64,000 nucleotides of DNA from Stieleria bergensis (GTDB lineage: Bacteria; Planctomycetota; Planctomycetia; Pirellulales; Pirellulaceae), in assembly GCA_007745635.1 (NCBI GenBank), contig CP036272.1:4207521-4271520 (forward strand), in the 5' to 3' direction. How positions within the stretch are numbered: position 1 is the stretch's first letter; each line of letters begins with the position of its first letter. Under the pieces are notes generated by a model. The model did not search any database. It was not told where the DNA came from and saw nothing but the letters and a program-made list of their open reading frames with translations. Positions 50,856 to 61,498 of the stretch are shown in pieces. The translations under genes and the position numbers were made by a program.

Positions 50856-51129
50856 CTTGGTTGAATCCTTCATCGAGATTTGGCTGTATAACACTGTCAT
50901 CAAAAGACACTGGCAATCGAGCATTCAGCGTCGGGCTCATCCGCCAGGTGGAAGTCCCGTATTGTAATTCGCTCCTACCCGCTGCGTAATCCGGGCGCGC
51001 CCTTATTTCAGGGGTTTCCGTGCCCGGGCACATGCGACGAAGCCTGGCGGACAATCAACCGTGATGTCGCCGCAAGGACGTTTTTACAAGCATCCCAGTT
51101 AAGGCTTCCTCCTTGCACGACCGAATTTA

Positions 51130-51138
51130 TGCTATAAC
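51130..51138 (+). promoter_or_regulatory. Possible extended -10 promoter of the polyamine operon
   Basis: TGCTATAAC is an extended -10 type (TG-N-TATAAC). TTGCAC 15 nt upstream is a poorly spaced -35. Transcription from here would begin around 51145, consistent with the downstream GTG start at 51200 and not with the TTG at 51113. Tentative. Confidence 0.4.
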
Positions 51139-51199
51139 GGCCCCCAACCGACAGACGCCCGGTCGGCTGATCATTCCATTTGATTTTTTGGACACTCGC

Positions 51200-51643
51200 G
51201 TGACTGTATCTGGTGATACCGATCTTGCTTCATCAAGCCCCCTGGCTGGGTTTGATGGCGGTTGCCAGTTCATCGTCGAGGCCTCCGCGTGCGACGCCCA
51301 TGCACTGCGAGACGCGGAAACGATTGAATCGATCTGCCAAAAATTAATCAATGACCTGTGCTTGCAGGTGGTTGGGCAACCACAGCGGCACGTGTTTCCT
51401 GACCCTGGCGGCGTGACTCTGTTGTATCTGCTCCGTGAATCGCACTTGGCCTGTCACACGTACCCCGAATTTGGATTTGTTACCTTTAACCTGTACAGCT
51501 GCCTTCCAAAGCCGGATTGGCCTTGGCAAACTCAGTTGCAGCGTCGCTTGAATGCCGGCGACGTACGGGTCAGGAAAATTCACAGGACACGACCAAACGG
51601 GCAAGACGCCGAAACGGCAACCGGATGGGGAGCGGGTCAATGA
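51200..51643 (+). CDS. speD: S-adenosylmethionine decarboxylase (SpeD family)
   Basis: Pyruvoyl enzyme that makes decarboxylated AdoMet, the aminopropyl donor for polyamine synthesis. I start at GTG 51200, giving 147 residues, since the likely promoter lies between this and the upstream TTG (51113). The self-cleavage site is visible: RESHLACHTYPE, with Glu80-Ser81 the expected break and Ser81 the pyruvoyl source, His86 the processing histidine, and Cys101 (YSC) the catalytic acid. The Gly-Gly-Val just before the site also fits the family. The start TTG at 51113 would add 29 unmatched residues. Its TGA overlaps the ATG of the next gene (ATGA). First gene of a six-gene operon with a spermidine-synthase-like enzyme. 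Confidence 0.9.
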   Translation: MTVSGDTDLASSSPLAGFDGGCQFIVEASACDAHALRDAETIESICQKLINDLCLQVVGQPQRHVFPDPGGVTLLYLLRESHLACHTYPEFGFVTFNLYSCLPKPDWPWQTQLQRRLNAGDVRVRKIHRTRPNGQDAETATGWGAGQ

Positions 51644-53190
51644 AACGGATTCAGACCAATTGTCCGTCTTGTGGCGGACCGCTTGAGTTTCAAGCCGGTG
51701 GCGCGATGGTCGCCATCTGTGATTTTTGCCACACCGCTGTGGGACGAAGCGACCGAGCGTTAGAAGACTACGGAAAAGTCGCGGAAGTCGGCGATCCGGC
51801 ATCTGGCCTGAAGCGAGGCATGACTGGCCGGTTCAATGGCAAACGATTCACGATCGCCGGCCGCGTTCGTTACCGGCATGCTGGCGGCGGCAGCTGGGAC
51901 GAGTGGTACCTCTCCTTTGGCGGTCAGCAATGGGCTTGGTTAGCCGAAGCGCAAGGCAAATTTTCCATCACGCGGAAACACACGCTCAAAAAATCACAGT
52001 CTCTTCCAGAATTTGATTCCATCGAGCTCAACAAAGCGATTCCGCTGAAGAACGAAACCTTTACGGTTCGCGAAAAAGGGGTCGCGACTGCCGAGGGCGC
52101 TGAAGGCGAACTGCCCTGGCAATTTCATCCCGGCAGCTCACATCACTATGTCGACTTAATCGCCACCGACAACGCGGTTTCAACCTTCGACTACGGCGAC
52201 GGCAGCGAGGGAGCCGAGCAAGCCGCGTACATGGGCAAAATGGTTACGCTGGAAGAACTCGGCATTGACCTTTCCAGTTTGGATCCCAACGCGGGTGTCC
52301 AGAGTGTAGGCTCGCTGCAGCTAAACTGCCCACAGTGCGGCGGCCCGTTGAAGCTACGAGCACCGGACCAAACCCTGCGAGTGGCCTGCCCGAATTGCTC
52401 GTCACTGCTTGATGCGTCGGAGGGCAAACTCACCCTCTTCCAGACGCTCACGCAGAAACGTCTCGACCCGCTCATACCGCTGGGATCCGAGGGGACCATT
52501 GGCGGCGTCAAGTTTACCTTGATCGGATACATGAAACGCCATGTGTTGTATCAAGGTCAGACGTTTCCTTGGACGGAGTACCTGCTCTACAATCGCGAGA
52601 CCGGTTTTCGCTGGTTGGTTTGTCAAGATTATCACTGGAGCTTTGTCGCCCCAGTGGACGAACCCGTCACGCGTTACGGTCAAAGCATCACCTACGATGG
52701 CGAGACCTTCCGCTTGTACGATCGTGGCACAGCGCATGTCAGCTATGTCTTGGGCGAATTTTATTGGCAGGTCAATGTAGGTGACCAAACGGAGACGTTC
52801 GACTACATTGCGCCTCCGCGCATGCTTTCGTTCGAGACCACCGGCTGGGGCGACACACAGGAAGTCACCGTTTCGGAAGGCCAGTACATGGCCCCGGAGG
52901 AAATCGAAGCGATCTTCGGCGTCAAAGACCTGCCACGCCCCTGGGGCGTTGGCGTCCTGCAGTCTGCACCGACAATGGAGAAGAGTTTTTGGCTCACCTG
53001 GATCGGAGGCGTGGTTTACCTGCTGTTGGTCTATGGCGTGTTCAGCAGCAAGGCCGACGCTTGGCTGCTAACGTACGCCTTGGTGGGCGTCAGTCTCTTC
53101 CCAATGGGTTTCTTGCTCTATCGCCGTCAGTTTGAAGTGCAACGGTGGAGCGACAGTGATTTCAGTCCTTATCTATCATCGGATGATTAG
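51640..53190 (+). CDS. Double zinc-ribbon/DUF4178 membrane protein
   Basis: A 516-residue protein of unknown function. I start at ATG 51640 (MKRIQTNCPSCGG), with GGGGAG upstream and a 4-bp overlap with speD. Two zinc ribbons each begin a repeat unit: Cys8-11-27-30 (CPSCGG...CDFC) and Cys230-233-250-253 (CPQCGG...CPNC). Each is followed by a beta-rich DUF4178-type domain (FTIAGRVRYRHAGGGSWDEW and FTLIGYMKRHVLYQGQTFPW), so the protein is an internal duplication. Two transmembrane helices end it (about residues 447-497). DUF4178 often neighbours spermidine synthase and DUF350 genes; the role is not established. The zinc ribbons are probably cytoplasmic, by inference. Confidence 0.9.
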   Translation: MKRIQTNCPSCGGPLEFQAGGAMVAICDFCHTAVGRSDRALEDYGKVAEVGDPASGLKRGMTGRFNGKRFTIAGRVRYRHAGGGSWDEWYLSFGGQQWAWLAEAQGKFSITRKHTLKKSQSLPEFDSIELNKAIPLKNETFTVREKGVATAEGAEGELPWQFHPGSSHHYVDLIATDNAVSTFDYGDGSEGAEQAAYMGKMVTLEELGIDLSSLDPNAGVQSVGSLQLNCPQCGGPLKLRAPDQTLRVACPNCSSLLDASEGKLTLFQTLTQKRLDPLIPLGSEGTIGGVKFTLIGYMKRHVLYQGQTFPWTEYLLYNRETGFRWLVCQDYHWSFVAPVDEPVTRYGQSITYDGETFRLYDRGTAHVSYVLGEFYWQVNVGDQTETFDYIAPPRMLSFETTGWGDTQEVTVSEGQYMAPEEIEAIFGVKDLPRPWGVGVLQSAPTMEKSFWLTWIGGVVYLLLVYGVFSSKADAWLLTYALVGVSLFPMGFLLYRRQFEVQRWSDSDFSPYLSSDD

Positions 53191-53379
53191 ATGAAAAACG
53201 CATTCTTGATCAGTTACTTTGTTGCCGCCGGGATTTGCTGCTCTGGTTTCACGACCGCAGCGGTCGCCGGTTGGAAAGCGCCCAGCTTTGGTGTGCTGCG
53301 TGTCATCTCATCAGGGATGCGATCCTCCAGCGGTTATGGTGGACGTTCCTTTGGTGGTTCATGGGGTGGAGGAAAATAA
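53191..53379 (+). CDS. Small Gly/Ser-rich exported peptide of the polyamine operon
   Basis: A 62-residue product whose ATG follows directly after the stop of the DUF4178 gene. It begins with a signal peptide (MKNAFLISYFVAAGICC...AVAG), then a short Ser/Gly/Tyr/Arg-rich mature part ending SFGGSWGGGK. The mature peptide is only about 35 residues. I do not recognise a family. The terminal codons GGT GGA GGA AAA also form the Shine-Dalgarno of the next gene, so part of the GGK ending may be due to that. Since it sits inside a polyamine enzyme operon, it could be a substrate for modification or a secreted signal; this is speculation. Such a small gene could be spurious, but its position and signal peptide argue otherwise. 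Confidence 0.65.
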   Translation: MKNAFLISYFVAAGICCSGFTTAAVAGWKAPSFGVLRVISSGMRSSSGYGGRSFGGSWGGGK

Positions 53380-53380
53380 G

Positions 53381-53674
53381 ATGAACTTATTGAATTTAAA
53401 CAGTCTTGCGTTGCTAGCTCAATCCGCCGATTCGGAGGGTTCCTCCGTCGCGGCGGCCGGATTTGCGCTCCTGGGTGTTCACTTAGTGGCCGCAATCGTT
53501 TTCGCCGTGCTCGGCATCGTGTTGTTGTTCTTCGGCCTCTGGCTGATGGAAAAACTGACGCCGTTTTCAGTGATGCGTGAGATCGAAGAAGATCAGAACC
53601 AAGCACTAGCGATCATCATGGGAGCCATCGTGATTGGGATTTCGATTATCATTGCCGCGGCCATCGTCGGATGA
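53381..53674 (+). CDS. DUF350-family small membrane protein
   Basis: A 97-residue protein starting at ATG 53381 ([12 protein letters not shown]) behind a strong Shine-Dalgarno (GGAGG, 8 nt). Two clear transmembrane helices ([20 protein letters not shown] continuing to about LFFGLWL; then [20 protein letters not shown]) flank a charged segment ([10 protein letters not shown]), the pattern of DUF350 (YjfL-like) proteins. The first about 20 residues may be a signal or extra helix. The next gene's ATG overlaps its TGA (53671-53674). DUF350 proteins are often encoded beside PspA, spermidine synthase and ATP-grasp genes (from memory). The biochemical role is unknown. Confidence 0.85.
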
Positions 53675-55203
53675 TCAATCGGGCACCCAACTACCTGCTC
53701 TATTTGAATGTTCTGGTCATTGCGACCTGTGGTTTGATCTATGAGTTACTGGCTGGCACGTTGGCCAGCTACTTGCTCGGTGACAGCGTCACACAGTTTT
53801 CTTTAGTCATCGGCGTTTACTTGTCGGCTCTGGGGATTGGTTCCTGGCTGTCGCGTTATGTCGACACTGGAGTGGCTCGGACCTTCATCGAAATTGAAAT
53901 TGCGATCGCCTTGGTCGGCGGCCTTTCGGCTCCGATCCTTTTCATTGCCTTCGCACAGATCGCATGGTTTCGGATCCTGCTGTTTGGCATGGTGCTGCTG
54001 ATCGGCATCTTGGTCGGCCTCGAGCTACCGCTGTTGATGCGGATTCTGAAGGAAAATCTTGACTTTCGCGAACTCGTCGCGCGTGTGCTGACGTTTGACT
54101 ACATTGGCGCTCTGATGGCGTCACTCTTGTTCCCGATTCTGCTGGTGCCACATCTAGGACTGGTGCGAACTTCGCTGCTGTTTGGGTTACTAAACGCTGC
54201 GGTCGGCATTTGGGGAACCTCGCTATTGCGACCGCTGTTGTCCCAGCGTTCGGTGACGGGACTGCGAACGCGAGGCTTCATCGTTGTTGGAATCTTGGTC
54301 GTCGGCTTCATCAAAGCCGACTCGCTGACTTCGCTTTCAGAGGAAGTCATTCTGCAGAAGCCGATCGTGTTTACACAGCACAGCCCGTTTCAGCGGATTG
54401 TGGTCACGAAGGATAAGGAAAACTTCCAGCTGTATCTCAACGGCAACTTGCAATTCAATTCACGCGACGAATACCGGTACCATGAAGCCCTGGTCCACCC
54501 CGCGATCAGCAGCCGAGACCAGGTGCACGACGTGCTGGTCCTGGGAGGTGGTGACGGATTAGCAGTGCGTGAAGTCCTGCGGTATCCGTCGGTCAAAACG
54601 GTGACGTTGGTGGATCTGGATCCCGCGATGACGTCCCTGGCGGAAAAGTTTCCGCCGCTGAAAGAACTCAACCAAGACTCGCTGAACGATGAACGCGTCA
54701 CGGTGATCAACCAAGACGCGTTTGTCTGGGCCACCGAACAACAGAAAACGTTTGATGTCGCGATCATCGACTTTCCTGATCCAAGTTCGTATTCGGTCGG
54801 CAAGCTCTACACCACGCGATTCTTTCAGATGTTGCAAAAAGTGCTGAACGACGACGCCGTTATCACGGTCCAGTGCACCTCGCCGCTGGTTGCCCCACAA
54901 TCCTATTGGTGCATTCTGAACACGCTGTCGGCGTCCGGTTTCCTGGTCCAGCCCTACCAGACATCGGTGCCGACGTTTGGCGTCTGGGGATTTGCTTATG
55001 CACGCTACACTGGCACCGACGTCAGCGACACTCGGCCTTGGCAATCGCGACGGGCGCTCCCCGACGGGCTTCGCTATCTGGATCAATCAACCATGCAAAC
55101 GTTGTTTCAAATGCCCGCTGACATCGCTCCAGTCGATGTCAAAATCAACCGGCTGAACGATCAAGTTTTGGTGCGTTATTACGAACAGGAATGGGGTTCG
55201 TGA
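53671..55203 (+). CDS. Membrane-anchored spermidine-synthase-like aminopropyltransferase
   Basis: A 510-residue protein. The N-terminal about 210 residues contain about seven transmembrane helices ([20 protein letters not shown] through [11 protein letters not shown]). The C-terminal half is a spermidine synthase/methyltransferase fold: dcAdoMet-binding [15 protein letters not shown], acidic loop TLVDLDPAM, and [10 protein letters not shown] at the catalytic Asp site, then GKLYTTRFF. With SpeD in the operon it could make aminopropylated products at the membrane. The membrane domain is unlike cytosolic SpeE. It may be a transporter-like or sensor part fused to the enzyme. The acceptor amine is unknown. 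The start overlaps the DUF350 stop, and the stop overlaps the next gene's GTG. Confidence 0.9.
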
Positions 55204-56873
55204 GCTCAGCACAAGGCAACGAAACACTCAAACAGCCGACACGCCGAACGTGGATCAAGTGGCTGGGAACAACGCCGCTGGCAATGCTCGTTGGCTGTTC
55301 CGGAAAGCCCTCGGCAGCTTTCAGCGGGGAACTCTTGCAACCGGACCTCAGTGTTGGACACCGGATTCGCGACGGCTGGAAGCTGCCACAGCCAACGGGT
55401 GCCCCTTCCAAGCATGCGGTGGTGATCGTCGGCGGAGGAATCGCTGGCCTTTCCGCTGCTTGGGAACTTCAGCGGCAAGGCATCCAAGACGTTGTGATCC
55501 TAGAAATGGAGTCCACGGCCGGCGGCACCAGTCGCAGCGGCAAATGGGAGGCATCCCAGTTTCCTTGGGCAGCCCATTACGTCCCGGTGCCCATGTCATT
55601 CAACCGAGACTTGCTGGAACTGTTTCAGGAAATGAACATCGTCACAGACGTCTCGGCCGACGGTCAGGTGACTGTCGCCGAAGAACACCTGTGCCGCGAA
55701 CCCGAAGAACGCGTGTTTCATCAAGGGCGTTGGCTGGAAGGACTTTATCCCGCATCCATTCAAGAGATTCATTCCACCGATCGTCAACAACTGGAACAAT
55801 TCCAACTGCAGATGAATCAGTGGGCGCAGCGGCGCGACGAACAAGGCCGACGGGCGTTCGCCATCCCAATGCAGCTGGGGACGGACAGCGATCCAGAGGT
55901 CATTCAGTTGGACCAGATCTCAATGGCCCAGTGGATGACCGATCAAGGCTATGACTCAGAGGCACTGCGTTGGCTGGTCGATTACGGGTGCCGCGATGAT
56001 TATGGACTGACGCTGGAACAAACCAGCGCATGGGCAGGCGTTTTCTACTTTGCGTCTCGACTGAGCGGTCAGGCGAATTCGATTGCTGAAATGGAATCCC
56101 AGCCGGTGATGACATGGCCACAGGGCAATGGCAAAATCGTCCAGCACTTAAGTCAGCGCTTTGCCAAACAGATCCGAACCGAACACGCTGTCACCAAAAT
56201 CACCAAGCAACCAAATGGTCAATCCATGCGCGTCACGGCTTACGACAAGGCCAGGGATCGCATGGTCGAATTGATTGCCGACGACGTCGTGTTTGCTGCC
56301 CCACAGTTTTTGGCAAGTCGCCTGATCGACCAATGGCAACAGGCCGGACGCGACGCGACCACGTTTCAATACGGTGGCTGGGTCGTCGCTAACCTGTTGC
56401 TGAAAGCGAGACCAAGTGAATCAAAAGAAGATGGGCTGGCGGCCTTGATGGCCTGGGACAATGTGATCTGCCATAGCGATTCACTGGGCTATGTAAATGC
56501 CTCGCATCAGTCAGGTGCTGATCATGGGCCGACCGTGATCACCTGGTACCACCCATTGCTAAAAGACGATCCCAAGTTGTCTCGGCAAACACTTTTGCAG
56601 ATGACGTGGGACGATTGGGCAGCAATTGTCTTAGCCGACCTGTCCCGGGCGCACCCTGAGATCGAGACGTTGATCCAGCGCATGGACATCATGCGATGGG
56701 GACACGCGATGATCCAACCTCGCGTAGGATTTATGTTTGGGAAACAACGCCAGCAAGCAGCCGAATCGCTCGGGCGGATCCATTTCGCGCACTCGGATCT
56801 AAGCGGCATTGCTTTGATGGAAGAAGCGTTTGCCAGAGGCGTTGCCGCAGCAAGGAAATGCGGCGCGTCGTGA
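55200..56873 (+). CDS. Exported FAD-dependent amine-oxidase-like lipoprotein
   Basis: I start at GTG 55200, overlapping the previous stop (GTGA) with AGGA 8 nt upstream; an ATG at 55191 lies too close to that site. The 557 residues begin with a twin-arginine motif ([11 protein letters not shown]) and a lipobox (AMLVGC, Cys33), so a folded, cofactor-loaded protein is probably exported and lipid-anchored. The FAD dinucleotide motif [18 protein letters not shown] follows at residues 74-91. The C-terminal FAD contact region ([21 protein letters not shown]) is present. It belongs to the flavin amine oxidase/NAD(P)-binding Rossmann group. Polyamine oxidation is inferred from the operon, not from active-site residues. 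Confidence 0.88.
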
Positions 56874-59308: not shown

Positions 59309-59653
59309 CCCGATACGGATCCATTGCAGCACCATGCATTGATGGAGTCGTGGCGAAACACTCGGAAAATGGCGAGGCAAAAACTTCACAAATCTATCGA
59401 AAAACGGCTGGAATCGACTCAACATTTGGCTCGCGCGAACCGAGAGCCGGTGCAAACCAGGGATTACCAAGCCAAGGCGGTCGAGGTCAAGAGAAACTCA
59501 ACGGGTGGCGCCCCCGGTTCTTGCGAGACACGATTGCGGTAAAGCCCGATCACGCAAATTTAGCTCCCGCAACTGCAACCGTTTTCCCCCATGCCATGCC
59601 AACCAGCGCATCCGACGGCCACTGACTGCATTCCCCAATGCCGAACTCAGGGT
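59309..59653. other. Divergent intergenic region before the 14-bp repeats
   Basis: Part of the 580-bp spacer between the leftward Pro-rich lipoprotein and the sialidase. No gene recognised; overlapping frames on both strands are composition effects. Confidence 0.4.
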
Positions 59654-59765
59654 GCCAGGGAGACCACGCCAGGGAGACCACGCCAGGGAGACCACGCCAG
59701 GGAGACCACGCCAGGGAGACCACGCCAGGCAGACCACGCGAGGCAGACCGCGCCAGGGAGATCAC
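59654..59765 (+). repeat. 14-bp tandem repeat array, 8 units
   Basis: Eight head-to-tail copies of GCCAGGGAGACCAC: the first five perfect, the last three with 1-3 changes each. Because 14 is not a multiple of 3, it is not a coding repeat. It lies 120-230 bp upstream of the sialidase start. Copy-number change could affect promoter spacing. Confidence 0.95.
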
Positions 59766-59887
59766 TCAAAATGGAACCAGCGAATTGGCCCCAAAAAAGG
59801 GACCGGAGAAGCGGTCACGGATCTGTATTCGGTGAGCTATCCTTGGCCAATCGACCACCCGATCATCGCACCCAAAGGTCCATCACC

Positions 59888-61498
59888 ATGCGTCTTCGTC
59901 TCGCCGCAGCTGTTCTGTCGCTTGCCTGCCATTGCCTCTGCCTGTCCGCTGCACAATCAGCTGAAAAGACACTCTATCAAACCTCCTTCGAGACACTGCC
60001 GGCCGGTGCGTTCACTGGCATCAGTTCTGGGCCAGTCATGATGCGAGTCCAGGGAAAGGCTGCGGTCACAGCGAAATTCGCCAGCGATGGCAAACAGAGC
60101 CTGCAACTTGCCGGCGGCGAAACCACCACGCTGGCCATCTCGACCACGGCACTGAAACAACCGGTGCGCGGCTTAACCTTCAAAGCCGAACGCTGGACCA
60201 ATCACGCCCCATTTGAGTGCCACGTCGACATCCTAAGCTCGGGCCAGTGGCAAACGCTTGTTAAGCTTGATCAAGTGATCGCTGTCGGTGCCAGATTCCT
60301 GAGTGACATTCGCTTGGCAATTCCCAATGACGCGAAGCCAACGATGATTCGGATTCAAGTGGTCTCTCCCAAGGACTCCGGCATCCTGCTGGACCAACTG
60401 GCGTTACTTGCCGAGCCACCGGCGAATCCTACTCGACTACCAGCACCACCACCGACCAGACGAATCGCGTTGCTTCACAGCGAGTCGCTGTTTGTTTCGG
60501 GCACCAATGACACACACACCTTTCGCATTCCCGCGATCGACACAGCCGTCAACGGCGACTTGATTGCCGCATGCGACGCCCGACGCAAAAACGGCGCAGA
60601 CCTTGTCCACCAACGCACCATTGACATTGTCTATCGACGCAGCACCGATAACGGAAAAACCTGGACGCCAATGCAGGTCATGGATCCCGTCACCGATGGT
60701 GGTTGCAGCGATCCTTCGTTGATTGTCGATCGCGAAACGGGGGCGATCTTCTGTTTTTACAACTACCTGCCCATGAACAAAGCCAACCGAGAGTATCGGT
60801 TCTATGTTCAGAAGAGCACCGACAACGGCCAGACCTGGCAAGCGCCTCAGGACATCACTGACCAAGTCGCCGGCCCTGAACTGAAGAACGCTTTTAAGTT
60901 CATCACGTCTGGCCGTGGAATCCAAACCCGTGACGGTCGGCTCCTGCAAAACTACGTGCGTGTCGGTCGCGGTCTAACTGTGTTCTGCAGCGACGATCAC
61001 GGCGAAAGCTGGCATGCACTGAGCGACTGCGCCCCAGCGGACGAATCCAAACTGGTTCAACTCCACGACGACAGCTTGATGATTAACTGCCGCTGGCAAC
61101 CCGGAAAACGCGTGATCCATCGCAGTGATGCCAAGGGTTTAAAATGGGACACCGAAAACGACCTTTCACTGATCGATCCACGCTGCAACGCGTGCATCAT
61201 TCAGTACACGGCCAAGCAAGATGGATTCAGCAAAAATCGACTGCTATTTTGTAATGCAGCGAGCAACAACGGGCGCAAGAACCTTGCTGTACGAATCAGT
61301 TACGACGGTGGCAAGACATGGTCCGAAGGCGGCGTCATCGATCCCGGCGCATCGGCCTACAGCGAAATCACCGTCCTCCATGACGGCACCTTGGGCGTGC
61401 TCTACGAGCCCGGCTATGGCGAAGTCAAATTCGTGCGTTTCGATCTGCCAGCCATCACCGCTGATCAAGACAAATTGCAAAAGCCCTGGCAACCATAA
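59888..61498 (+). CDS. Secreted sialidase-like BNR-repeat glycosidase
   Basis: Probable exo-alpha-sialidase (GH33-type six-blade propeller). I start at ATG 59888 (MRLRLAAAVLSLACHCLCL), which gives a signal peptide cleaved near AQSAEK; the longer frame includes the 14-bp repeats. The 536-residue protein has a beta-sandwich-like N-terminal domain (to about residue 190), then the Arg-triad opening FRIPAIDTAVNGDLIAACDAR and Asp-boxes STDNGKTWTP, STDNGQTWQA, SDDHGESWHA and SYDGGKTWSE. It would act outside the cytoplasm on sialic acid or sulfated polymers; the exact glycan is unknown. It stands alone before a repeat-rich region. Confidence 0.92.
   Translation: MRLRLAAAVLSLACHCLCLSAAQSAEKTLYQTSFETLPAGAFTGISSGPVMMRVQGKAAVTAKFASDGKQSLQLAGGETTTLAISTTALKQPVRGLTFKAERWTNHAPFECHVDILSSGQWQTLVKLDQVIAVGARFLSDIRLAIPNDAKPTMIRIQVVSPKDSGILLDQLALLAEPPANPTRLPAPPPTRRIALLHSESLFVSGTNDTHTFRIPAIDTAVNGDLIAACDARRKNGADLVHQRTIDIVYRRSTDNGKTWTPMQVMDPVTDGGCSDPSLIVDRETGAIFCFYNYLPMNKANREYRFYVQKSTDNGQTWQAPQDITDQVAGPELKNAFKFITSGRGIQTRDGRLLQNYVRVGRGLTVFCSDDHGESWHALSDCAPADESKLVQLHDDSLMINCRWQPGKRVIHRSDAKGLKWDTENDLSLIDPRCNACIIQYTAKQDGFSKNRLLFCNAASNNGRKNLAVRISYDGGKTWSEGGVIDPGASAYSEITVLHDGTLGVLYEPGYGEVKFVRFDLPAITADQDKLQKPWQP

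Follow-up and report, generated by a model that had tools for sequence, protein, structure and literature searches.

Operons that encode a spermidine synthase-like membrane protein (referred to here as TM-SpeE, for its transmembrane [TM] segments) together with DUF350, DUF4178, and an exported partner are already known. In the passages that Ravi et al. (2024, PMC11237479) devote to them, they form the second major group, in which TM-SpeE, DUF350, DUF4178, and lipoprotein genes are combined with the CesT/Tir-PspA dyad; these passages state seven TM segments, suggest aminopropylation of other substrates, and name the Ctha_1186 lipoprotein, with no mention there of a C-terminal lysine. The window analyzed here, a stretch of 64,000 nucleotides from the Stieleria bergensis genome (contig CP036272.1, positions 4,207,521 to 4,271,520), contains a six-gene operon that shares with that group the seven-TM spermidine synthase-like protein, DUF350, DUF4178, and one exported partner. 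It differs from the operons covered in those passages by the addition of SpeD, an S-adenosylmethionine (AdoMet) decarboxylase, and of a flavin adenine dinucleotide (FAD) protein, and by its partner, a 62-residue peptide that was assigned to no family in the Pfam scan and occupies the position of the Ctha_1186 lipoprotein. Kinship to PspA-linked operons, as proposed in an earlier note on this DNA, is supported by this group; a scan of ten proteins from the operon and its surroundings showed no CesT/Tir-PspA dyad, a search that did not extend to other parts of the genome. The peptide, which the earlier note passed over, ends in lysine. A tail with this end accompanies TM-SpeE in at least eight phyla and is likely the best candidate for the acceptor of the enzyme. 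The lysine end was not found in print: a literature search on lysine aminopropylation and related terms, with subscription papers mostly outside its reach, gave no such report among the papers listed.

Several other systems invite comparison. Li et al. (2019, Biochem J 476:2579) reportedly described AdoMet decarboxylase genes clustered with DUF350 and with a fusion of a major facilitator superfamily (MFS)-type membrane part to spermidine synthase, whose acceptor, according to that report, is unknown but is not putrescine. As described there, these clusters resemble the Stieleria operon in joining SpeD to a membrane-bound synthase fusion and DUF350; what differs is the concrete acceptor, a lysine tail, proposed here. 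In Escherichia coli, YgiC and YjfC, which are named peptide-spermidine ligases in RefSeq (see Pederick et al., 2023) and are presumably ATP-grasp ligases, adjoin the DUF1190 proteins YgiB and YjfM, both ending in -GG. The DUF350 protein YjfL belongs to the yjfL-yjfM-yjfC run, and the longer yjfIJKLMC run brings a PspA homologue, DUF350, the -GG-ended DUF1190 protein, and the ligase together. Among 30 proteobacterial loci, taken from 41 places found, DUF1190 proteins end in -GG in 24 (23 central frames and L329 by a second frame), the rest ending otherwise or being in the wrong frame. These systems share with the Stieleria operon an exported partner with a Gly/Ser/Arg-rich tail, polyamine chemistry, and, in the yjf run, DUF350. 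They differ in having a ligase and a -GG end, as opposed to an aminopropyltransferase that uses decarboxylated AdoMet (dcAdoMet) and a -K end here; neither an ATP-grasp ligase nor a DUF1190 partner with -GG was among the ten scanned proteins, and the tail in the window ends in Lys. In each case the last residue fits the enzyme, because a carboxyl end suits a ligase and a lysine amine suits an aminopropyltransferase. Polyamine-type groups on lysine side chains are found in hypusine/deoxyhypusine and in silaffins; those are internal lysines modified by other enzymes, whereas the lysine here is C-terminal and the proposed enzyme is homologous to SpeE.

The Stieleria peptide has an N-terminal TM or signal segment followed by a Gly/Ser/Arg-rich tail that terminates in GRSFGGSWGGGK. 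In nearly every complete locus, a short one-TM protein lies between DUF4178 and DUF350, with a drifting sequence and a constant end. In a count that picked genes by codons and was blind to C termini, Lys was the last residue of 108 of the 119 distinct tails, compared to 9 of 457 control genes of the same loci (5/156 for SpeE, 1/121 for DUF350, 1/92 for FAD, and 2/88 for SpeD). This count started from 163 loci (L031 to L070, L101 to L143, and L144 to L223), of which 36 lacked a DUF350 match at the expected position and 3 were truncated at the end of a contig, leaving 124 loci, 119 of them distinct; the gene upstream, DUF4178, was set apart from the tail pick. Ten of the 11 exceptions are loci that hold an unpicked K-ended tail, and the eleventh (L062, from genome G019) has such a tail beside DUF4178 elsewhere in its genome. 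Among the 36 excluded loci, 17 show a K-ended tail open reading frame (ORF), 7 more have the tail next to DUF4178, at a site beyond the SpeE region that was retrieved (in L198 perhaps only ∼9 kb away), and 10 are short contigs or unresolved.

If the tail belongs to the enzyme, SpeE regions that lack it should be accompanied by a tail elsewhere in the genome. Such tails were found beside DUF4178 in G019 and G130 and in 6 of nine additional genomes, with 3 unreadable; all 13 genomes searched in this follow-up had DUF4178. A later set from Pseudomonadota comprised 30 of the 31 genomes with TM-SpeE, the 31st being already present as L208, and showed a K-ended tail in 26 of 30 loci (24 ending in -GK or -HK and 2, found by reading the gap, in -IK). 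One SpeE of this set is 97.9% identical to that of an earlier locus (L274 and L217, respectively); the others are at most 89.3% identical. Since these later scans targeted K-ended ORFs, they are less strict than the blind count.

The residue before the lysine varies with the lineage. The ending -GK predominates in planctomycetes, acidobacteria, myxobacteria, and gemmatimonads, and -HK does so in Bacteroidota, many proteobacteria, Verrucomicrobiota, and Leptospiraceae; three loci have -VK or -IK. A collection of 164 tails includes 118 with GK, 43 with HK, 2 with IK, and 1 with VK. The terminal Lys codon is AAA in 104 of these tails and AAG in 60. The tail is carried by a free one-TM peptide, by a fusion with DUF4178 behind a hydrophobic segment (Burkholderiales, L126, and L177), or by a larger exported protein, as its C-terminal part: in L120, L130, L132, L133, L135, and L142, a protein of 232 to 520 residues encoded before DUF350 or SpeE has an R/S/G-rich tail that ends in -GK. 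The larger proteins of L130, L135, and L142 matched no Pfam family, and a lipobox could be seen by eye in the tail proteins of L133, L135, L142, and L066. PspA next to the tail protein was confirmed by Pfam solely in L130, in which the proteins labeled CesT and DUF4178 had no Pfam match, and L142 has TelA instead. On the SpeE tree, the end changes between GK and HK at least 2 times (134 rows), and the carrier changes between short and long at least 4 times (105 rows, K-ended picks only, with 97 short and 8 long carriers). Judging from these sequences, the architecture of the carrier changes while the end stays.

The predicted enzyme has an intact catalytic site. TM-SpeE matches NCBIfam NF002956 (“polyamine aminopropyltransferase”), a model that spans the membrane part, with an E value of 1.3e-194, above the cutoff. 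It carries the GGGDG, DxxD, DA, Q, and Y motifs; residues D349, D367, D370, Q261, and Y270 are invariant in 158 of 158 SpeE rows, and D295 is found in 154 of them, with Glu in the other 4. We take these residues to act in dcAdoMet binding and catalysis. The nearest solved structures to its model (predicted local distance difference test [pLDDT] of 93.1) are aminopropyltransferases. Fold and catalytic residues are shared with soluble spermidine/spermine synthases (1uir, 7xif, 3anx, and 6bq2), which lack the seven-TM part, as opposed to the membrane protein TM-SpeE with its domain predicted outside the cytoplasm. The soluble enzymes act on free amines. Loops 2-3, 4-5, and 6-7 are richer in Lys and Arg than loops 1-2, 3-4, and 5-6 in all 158 rows (means of 9.0 versus 2.0), and the stretch following TM7 is acidic. 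Because of this pattern, under the positive-inside rule and with seven TM segments, the enzyme domain is predicted to be extracytoplasmic and to share that side of the membrane with the FAD protein and, by prediction, with the tail. A comparison of GK-type and HK-type SpeE residues revealed clade differences only and no clear specificity site.

Among 149 genomes of the same family, 40 carry TM-SpeE, and many of its matches lie in the repeated arrangement SpeD-DUF4178-(peptide)-DUF350-SpeE-FAD, with FAD or SpeD lost or moved in some; for these reasons, the gene arrangement is not due to chance, and the co-occurrence in planctomycetes that the earlier note had proposed to look for is there. DUF4178 is present in 37 of the 149 genomes, 36 of them shared with TM-SpeE, and SpeD in 43: in 39 of the 40 with TM-SpeE and in 4 of the 109 without it. 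A lack of SpeD or FAD in most relatives, which the earlier note would have counted against its pathway, is not seen for SpeD among the TM-SpeE genomes of this family and applies in part to FAD, as PspA-type and Ensifer-type loci have the tail and no FAD match. In the genome of S. bergensis itself (one contig, 96.47% complete), TM-SpeE is the only Spermine_synth protein found and the SpeD of the operon is the only AdoMet_dc protein found. TM-SpeE was also detected in 31 of 299 sampled genomes of Pseudomonadota, the phylum of Comamonas. On a Novosphingobium plasmid (L138), the order is SPFH-DUF4178-DUF4178-tail-DUF350-SpeE-FAD-SpeD-rhodanese, which adds SPFH and rhodanese genes, and the tail ends in -SHK.

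The Ser (in ESH), His, and Cys residues of SpeD align with those of the AdoMet decarboxylase from Thermotoga maritima (1tlu), presumably the functional residues of class 1b enzymes. The protein scores above the cutoff of Pfam AdoMet_dc (2.5e-21) and below that of TIGR03330 (59.8 versus 75.65 bits). The DUF4178 gene product matches its Pfam family (3.2e-41) in two stretches, with additional zinc-ribbon matches; with two hydrophobic segments and an acidic end in its C-terminal part, it is predicted to be cytoplasmic. Of 119 distinct DUF4178 proteins, 83 have a C-terminal Asp or Glu and 9 a C-terminal Lys; those of the 9 that were inspected carry the fused tail. The corresponding end in the window lies at 53140-53190. 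Pfam E values are 1.2e-13 for DUF350, 1.2e-38 for Spermine_synth in the SpeE gene, and 6.4e-18 for Amino_oxidase in the FAD gene.

The FAD protein has the fold of monoamine oxidase/polyamine oxidase (MAO/PAO) enzymes and a FAD motif; its model (pLDDT of 89.9) is nearest to putrescine oxidase, MAO, and the spermidine dehydrogenase SpdH. Export, which the earlier note had postulated, is predicted here as well: of 40 homologues searched with simple patterns, their start codons being uncertain, 26 have a twin-arginine translocation (Tat) motif and 19 have a lipobox. MAO/PAO enzymes carry a conserved, important active-site lysine. Unlike them, the FAD proteins align with Lys in 24 or more of 40 rows at no position, which weakens the candidacy of the family as a canonical polyamine oxidase. 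The protein was also considered as the reason for the tail, an idea rejected because the tail occurs in loci with no FAD match; it appears to be an optional module of the system.

Taken together, the operon is somewhat more likely than not to be an envelope protein-modification system, in which TM-SpeE would aminopropylate the C-terminal lysine of the tail. SpeD would make dcAdoMet, from which TM-SpeE would move the aminopropyl group to the side-chain amine of that lysine, and not to putrescine; in other loci, a DUF4178-fused tail or a larger exported protein would serve as the acceptor. The product would be a stalk anchored in the membrane and tipped, outside the cytoplasm, with a spermidine-like group. 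As a membrane partner, DUF350 might let dcAdoMet pass or present the tail; the DUF4178 protein with its zinc ribbons could be a cytoplasmic partner or sensor, and the Tat-exported FAD protein may provide an optional later step that oxidizes the product or a free amine.

Several points count against this assignment and, in part, explain its limited weight. What the sequences and models show is the gene content, the co-occurrence, the C-terminal Lys, the catalytic residues, and a predicted topology; the transfer itself, its site, the exit of dcAdoMet, and the roles of DUF350, DUF4178, and the FAD protein are conjectured from these. We know of no precedent for dcAdoMet outside the cytoplasm, where an extracytoplasmic aminopropyltransferase would need it. 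The positive-inside pattern is a rule and not a measurement. Ahead of the enzyme domain, the model of TM-SpeE shows six helical stretches, of which one spans 54 residues, and the predicted count of seven TM segments depends on reading that long helix as two. Two of the 36 excluded loci, L067 and L068, which encode divergent TM-SpeE proteins, have no tail, DUF350, or DUF4178 in the fetched region, and their genomes (G134 and G105, respectively) gave no DUF4178 match either. The TM-SpeE of L066 is likewise divergent, with no SpeD, DUF350, or DUF4178 match near any of the three, and is directly preceded by a lipoprotein-like ORF that ends in GFSFGK. (A UvrA-domain gene follows TM-SpeE in L066, according to Pfam, and L068 has a look-alike.) Four loci of the later Pseudomonadota set (L273, L280, L290, and L293) show no tail, DUF350, or DUF4178 match in the fetched region, and the scans targeting K-ended ORFs also gave a few spurious ones (about six in that set, uncounted). 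The control genome of Corynebacterium glutamicum scores for TM-SpeE and DUF4178 and not for AdoMet_dc, which leaves no evident source of the donor there. Finally, the lysine may be conserved for docking or for its charge.

This last point leads to the strongest competitor of tail aminopropylation, namely, that the tail is an unmodified docking, sensing, or pseudo-substrate element of a TM-SpeE/DUF350 complex, the true acceptor being a lipid, a glycan, or a small molecule. The tail, DUF350, and TM-SpeE do co-occur even when FAD or SpeD is not nearby, and the GK or HK type follows SpeE clades with 2 changes, a pattern that binding would also predict. However, near invariance is confined to the last residue, with drift in the remainder of the tail and changes of its carrier, the primary amine at the end is what an aminopropyltransferase requires, and the sister ATP-grasp system has a terminal -GG instead. 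A docking role is considered unlikely.

The earlier note envisaged compartmentalized polyamine synthesis, export, and oxidation, that is, SpeD and TM-SpeE making free polyamines at the membrane that are exported and oxidized by the FAD protein. Its view of one functional unit with a dcAdoMet supply, a membrane-anchored SpeE, and an exported FAD protein fits the data; its free polyamine synthesis and export are not supported. The intact catalytic residues, the NCBIfam label, and the presence of putrescine oxidase and spermidine dehydrogenase among the nearest FAD folds are compatible with such a pathway, which nevertheless leaves the lysine tail of at least eight phyla unexplained and has to contend with the many tail-keeping loci that lack a FAD match. 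Membrane-bound spermidine synthase fusions are also said, by Li et al., not to substitute for spermidine synthase. With a single SpeE-family gene in the genome and a nearly universal tail, free polyamine synthesis was rejected as the main interpretation and is retained as an improbable one. Slightly less probable still is modification of the tail by TM-SpeE in the cytoplasm ahead of export; dcAdoMet is made there and the C terminus is the last part to exit, yet by the Lys/Arg pattern the enzyme domain is extracytoplasmic in each of the 158 rows, and several tails are on lipoproteins with the lipoboxes noted above. The suggestion that the -GGK end merely reflects a Shine-Dalgarno sequence for the next gene, or arose by chance, draws on the overlap of the tail end with GGAGGAAAATAAGATG in the window and on similar strings in the last bases of 80 of the 164 tails, and it has virtually no standing as a full explanation, because the ends include 43 with His-Lys and 3 with Ile/Val-Lys, Lys is encoded by AAG in 60 tails and Gly by GGC or GGT in 55 of 118, 38 tails located >25 nucleotides before the next ORF start still end in GK, HK, or IK, and other genes of the same loci seldom end in Lys. 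In the window, the lysine-end sequence GGAGGAAAA probably doubles as the ribosome-binding site of DUF350.

The layout given in the earlier note, six ORFs on the plus strand at 51113-56873 with short overlaps and gaps, was confirmed from the sequence and Pfam matches (Table 1). SpeD and DUF4178 overlap in ATGA (the SpeD stop codon TGA is at 51641-51643 and the DUF4178 ATG at 51640); the stop codon of DUF4178 ends at 53190, immediately before the ATG of the peptide at 53191; the TAA of the peptide ends at 53379 and the ATG of DUF350 is at 53381; DUF350 and SpeE overlap in ATGA at 53671-53674; and the TGA of SpeE at 55201-55203 overlaps a GTG start of the FAD gene at 55200, for which an ATG at 55191 is an alternative.

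Table 1. Features of the six-gene operon in the window
Feature	Position	Strand	Basis
SpeD, class 1b-type S-adenosylmethionine decarboxylase (predicted)	51113..51643	+	Pfam, alignment to T. maritima AdoMet decarboxylase
DUF4178 protein, zinc ribbons and two DUF4178 domains	51640..53190	+	Pfam, sequence
62-residue exported/anchored tail peptide, proposed aminopropyl acceptor	53191..53379	+	ORF, comparison of loci
AAA codon of the C-terminal lysine (stop codon TAA, 53377-53379)	53374..53376	+	Sequence
DUF350 (YjfL-type) small membrane protein	53381..53674	+	Pfam
TM-SpeE, seven predicted TM segments followed by aminopropyltransferase domain	53671..55203	+	NF002956, structure model
FAD protein, Tat motif (RRTW) and lipobox (LVGC)	55191..56873	+	Pfam, motifs, structure model

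None of the flanking genes scanned (encoding a WecG-type transferase, a PhoD-like phosphatase on the opposite strand, a DEAD-box helicase, and an unassigned protein) resembles a part of the operon. Farther downstream, positions 59654-59765 hold a tandem array of 8 copies of the 14-base unit GCCAGGGAGACCAC with 92% matches, located just upstream of, or inside a long reading of, the BNR-repeat (sialidase-like) ORF at 59591-61498.

A partner that ends in lysine in nearly all of the relatives offers a concrete candidate acceptor for the widespread membrane-bound spermidine synthase fusions. A dcAdoMet-dependent aminopropylation of the C-terminal lysines of membrane-anchored proteins outside the cytoplasm, by an enzyme that also exports dcAdoMet, would be a new posttranslational modification spread over at least eight phyla and, together with the ATP-grasp/-GG systems, would make up a general class of envelope proteins with polyamine tips, centered on DUF350; this broader proposal is tentative, with the balance tipped slightly against it. 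If tail aminopropylation is right, a protein modification would be added to biology, SpeD would have a role beyond polyamine synthesis in a bacterium whose one spermidine synthase-family gene is that of TM-SpeE, and DUF350, DUF4178, and a part of the PspA envelope-stress systems would share one chemistry.

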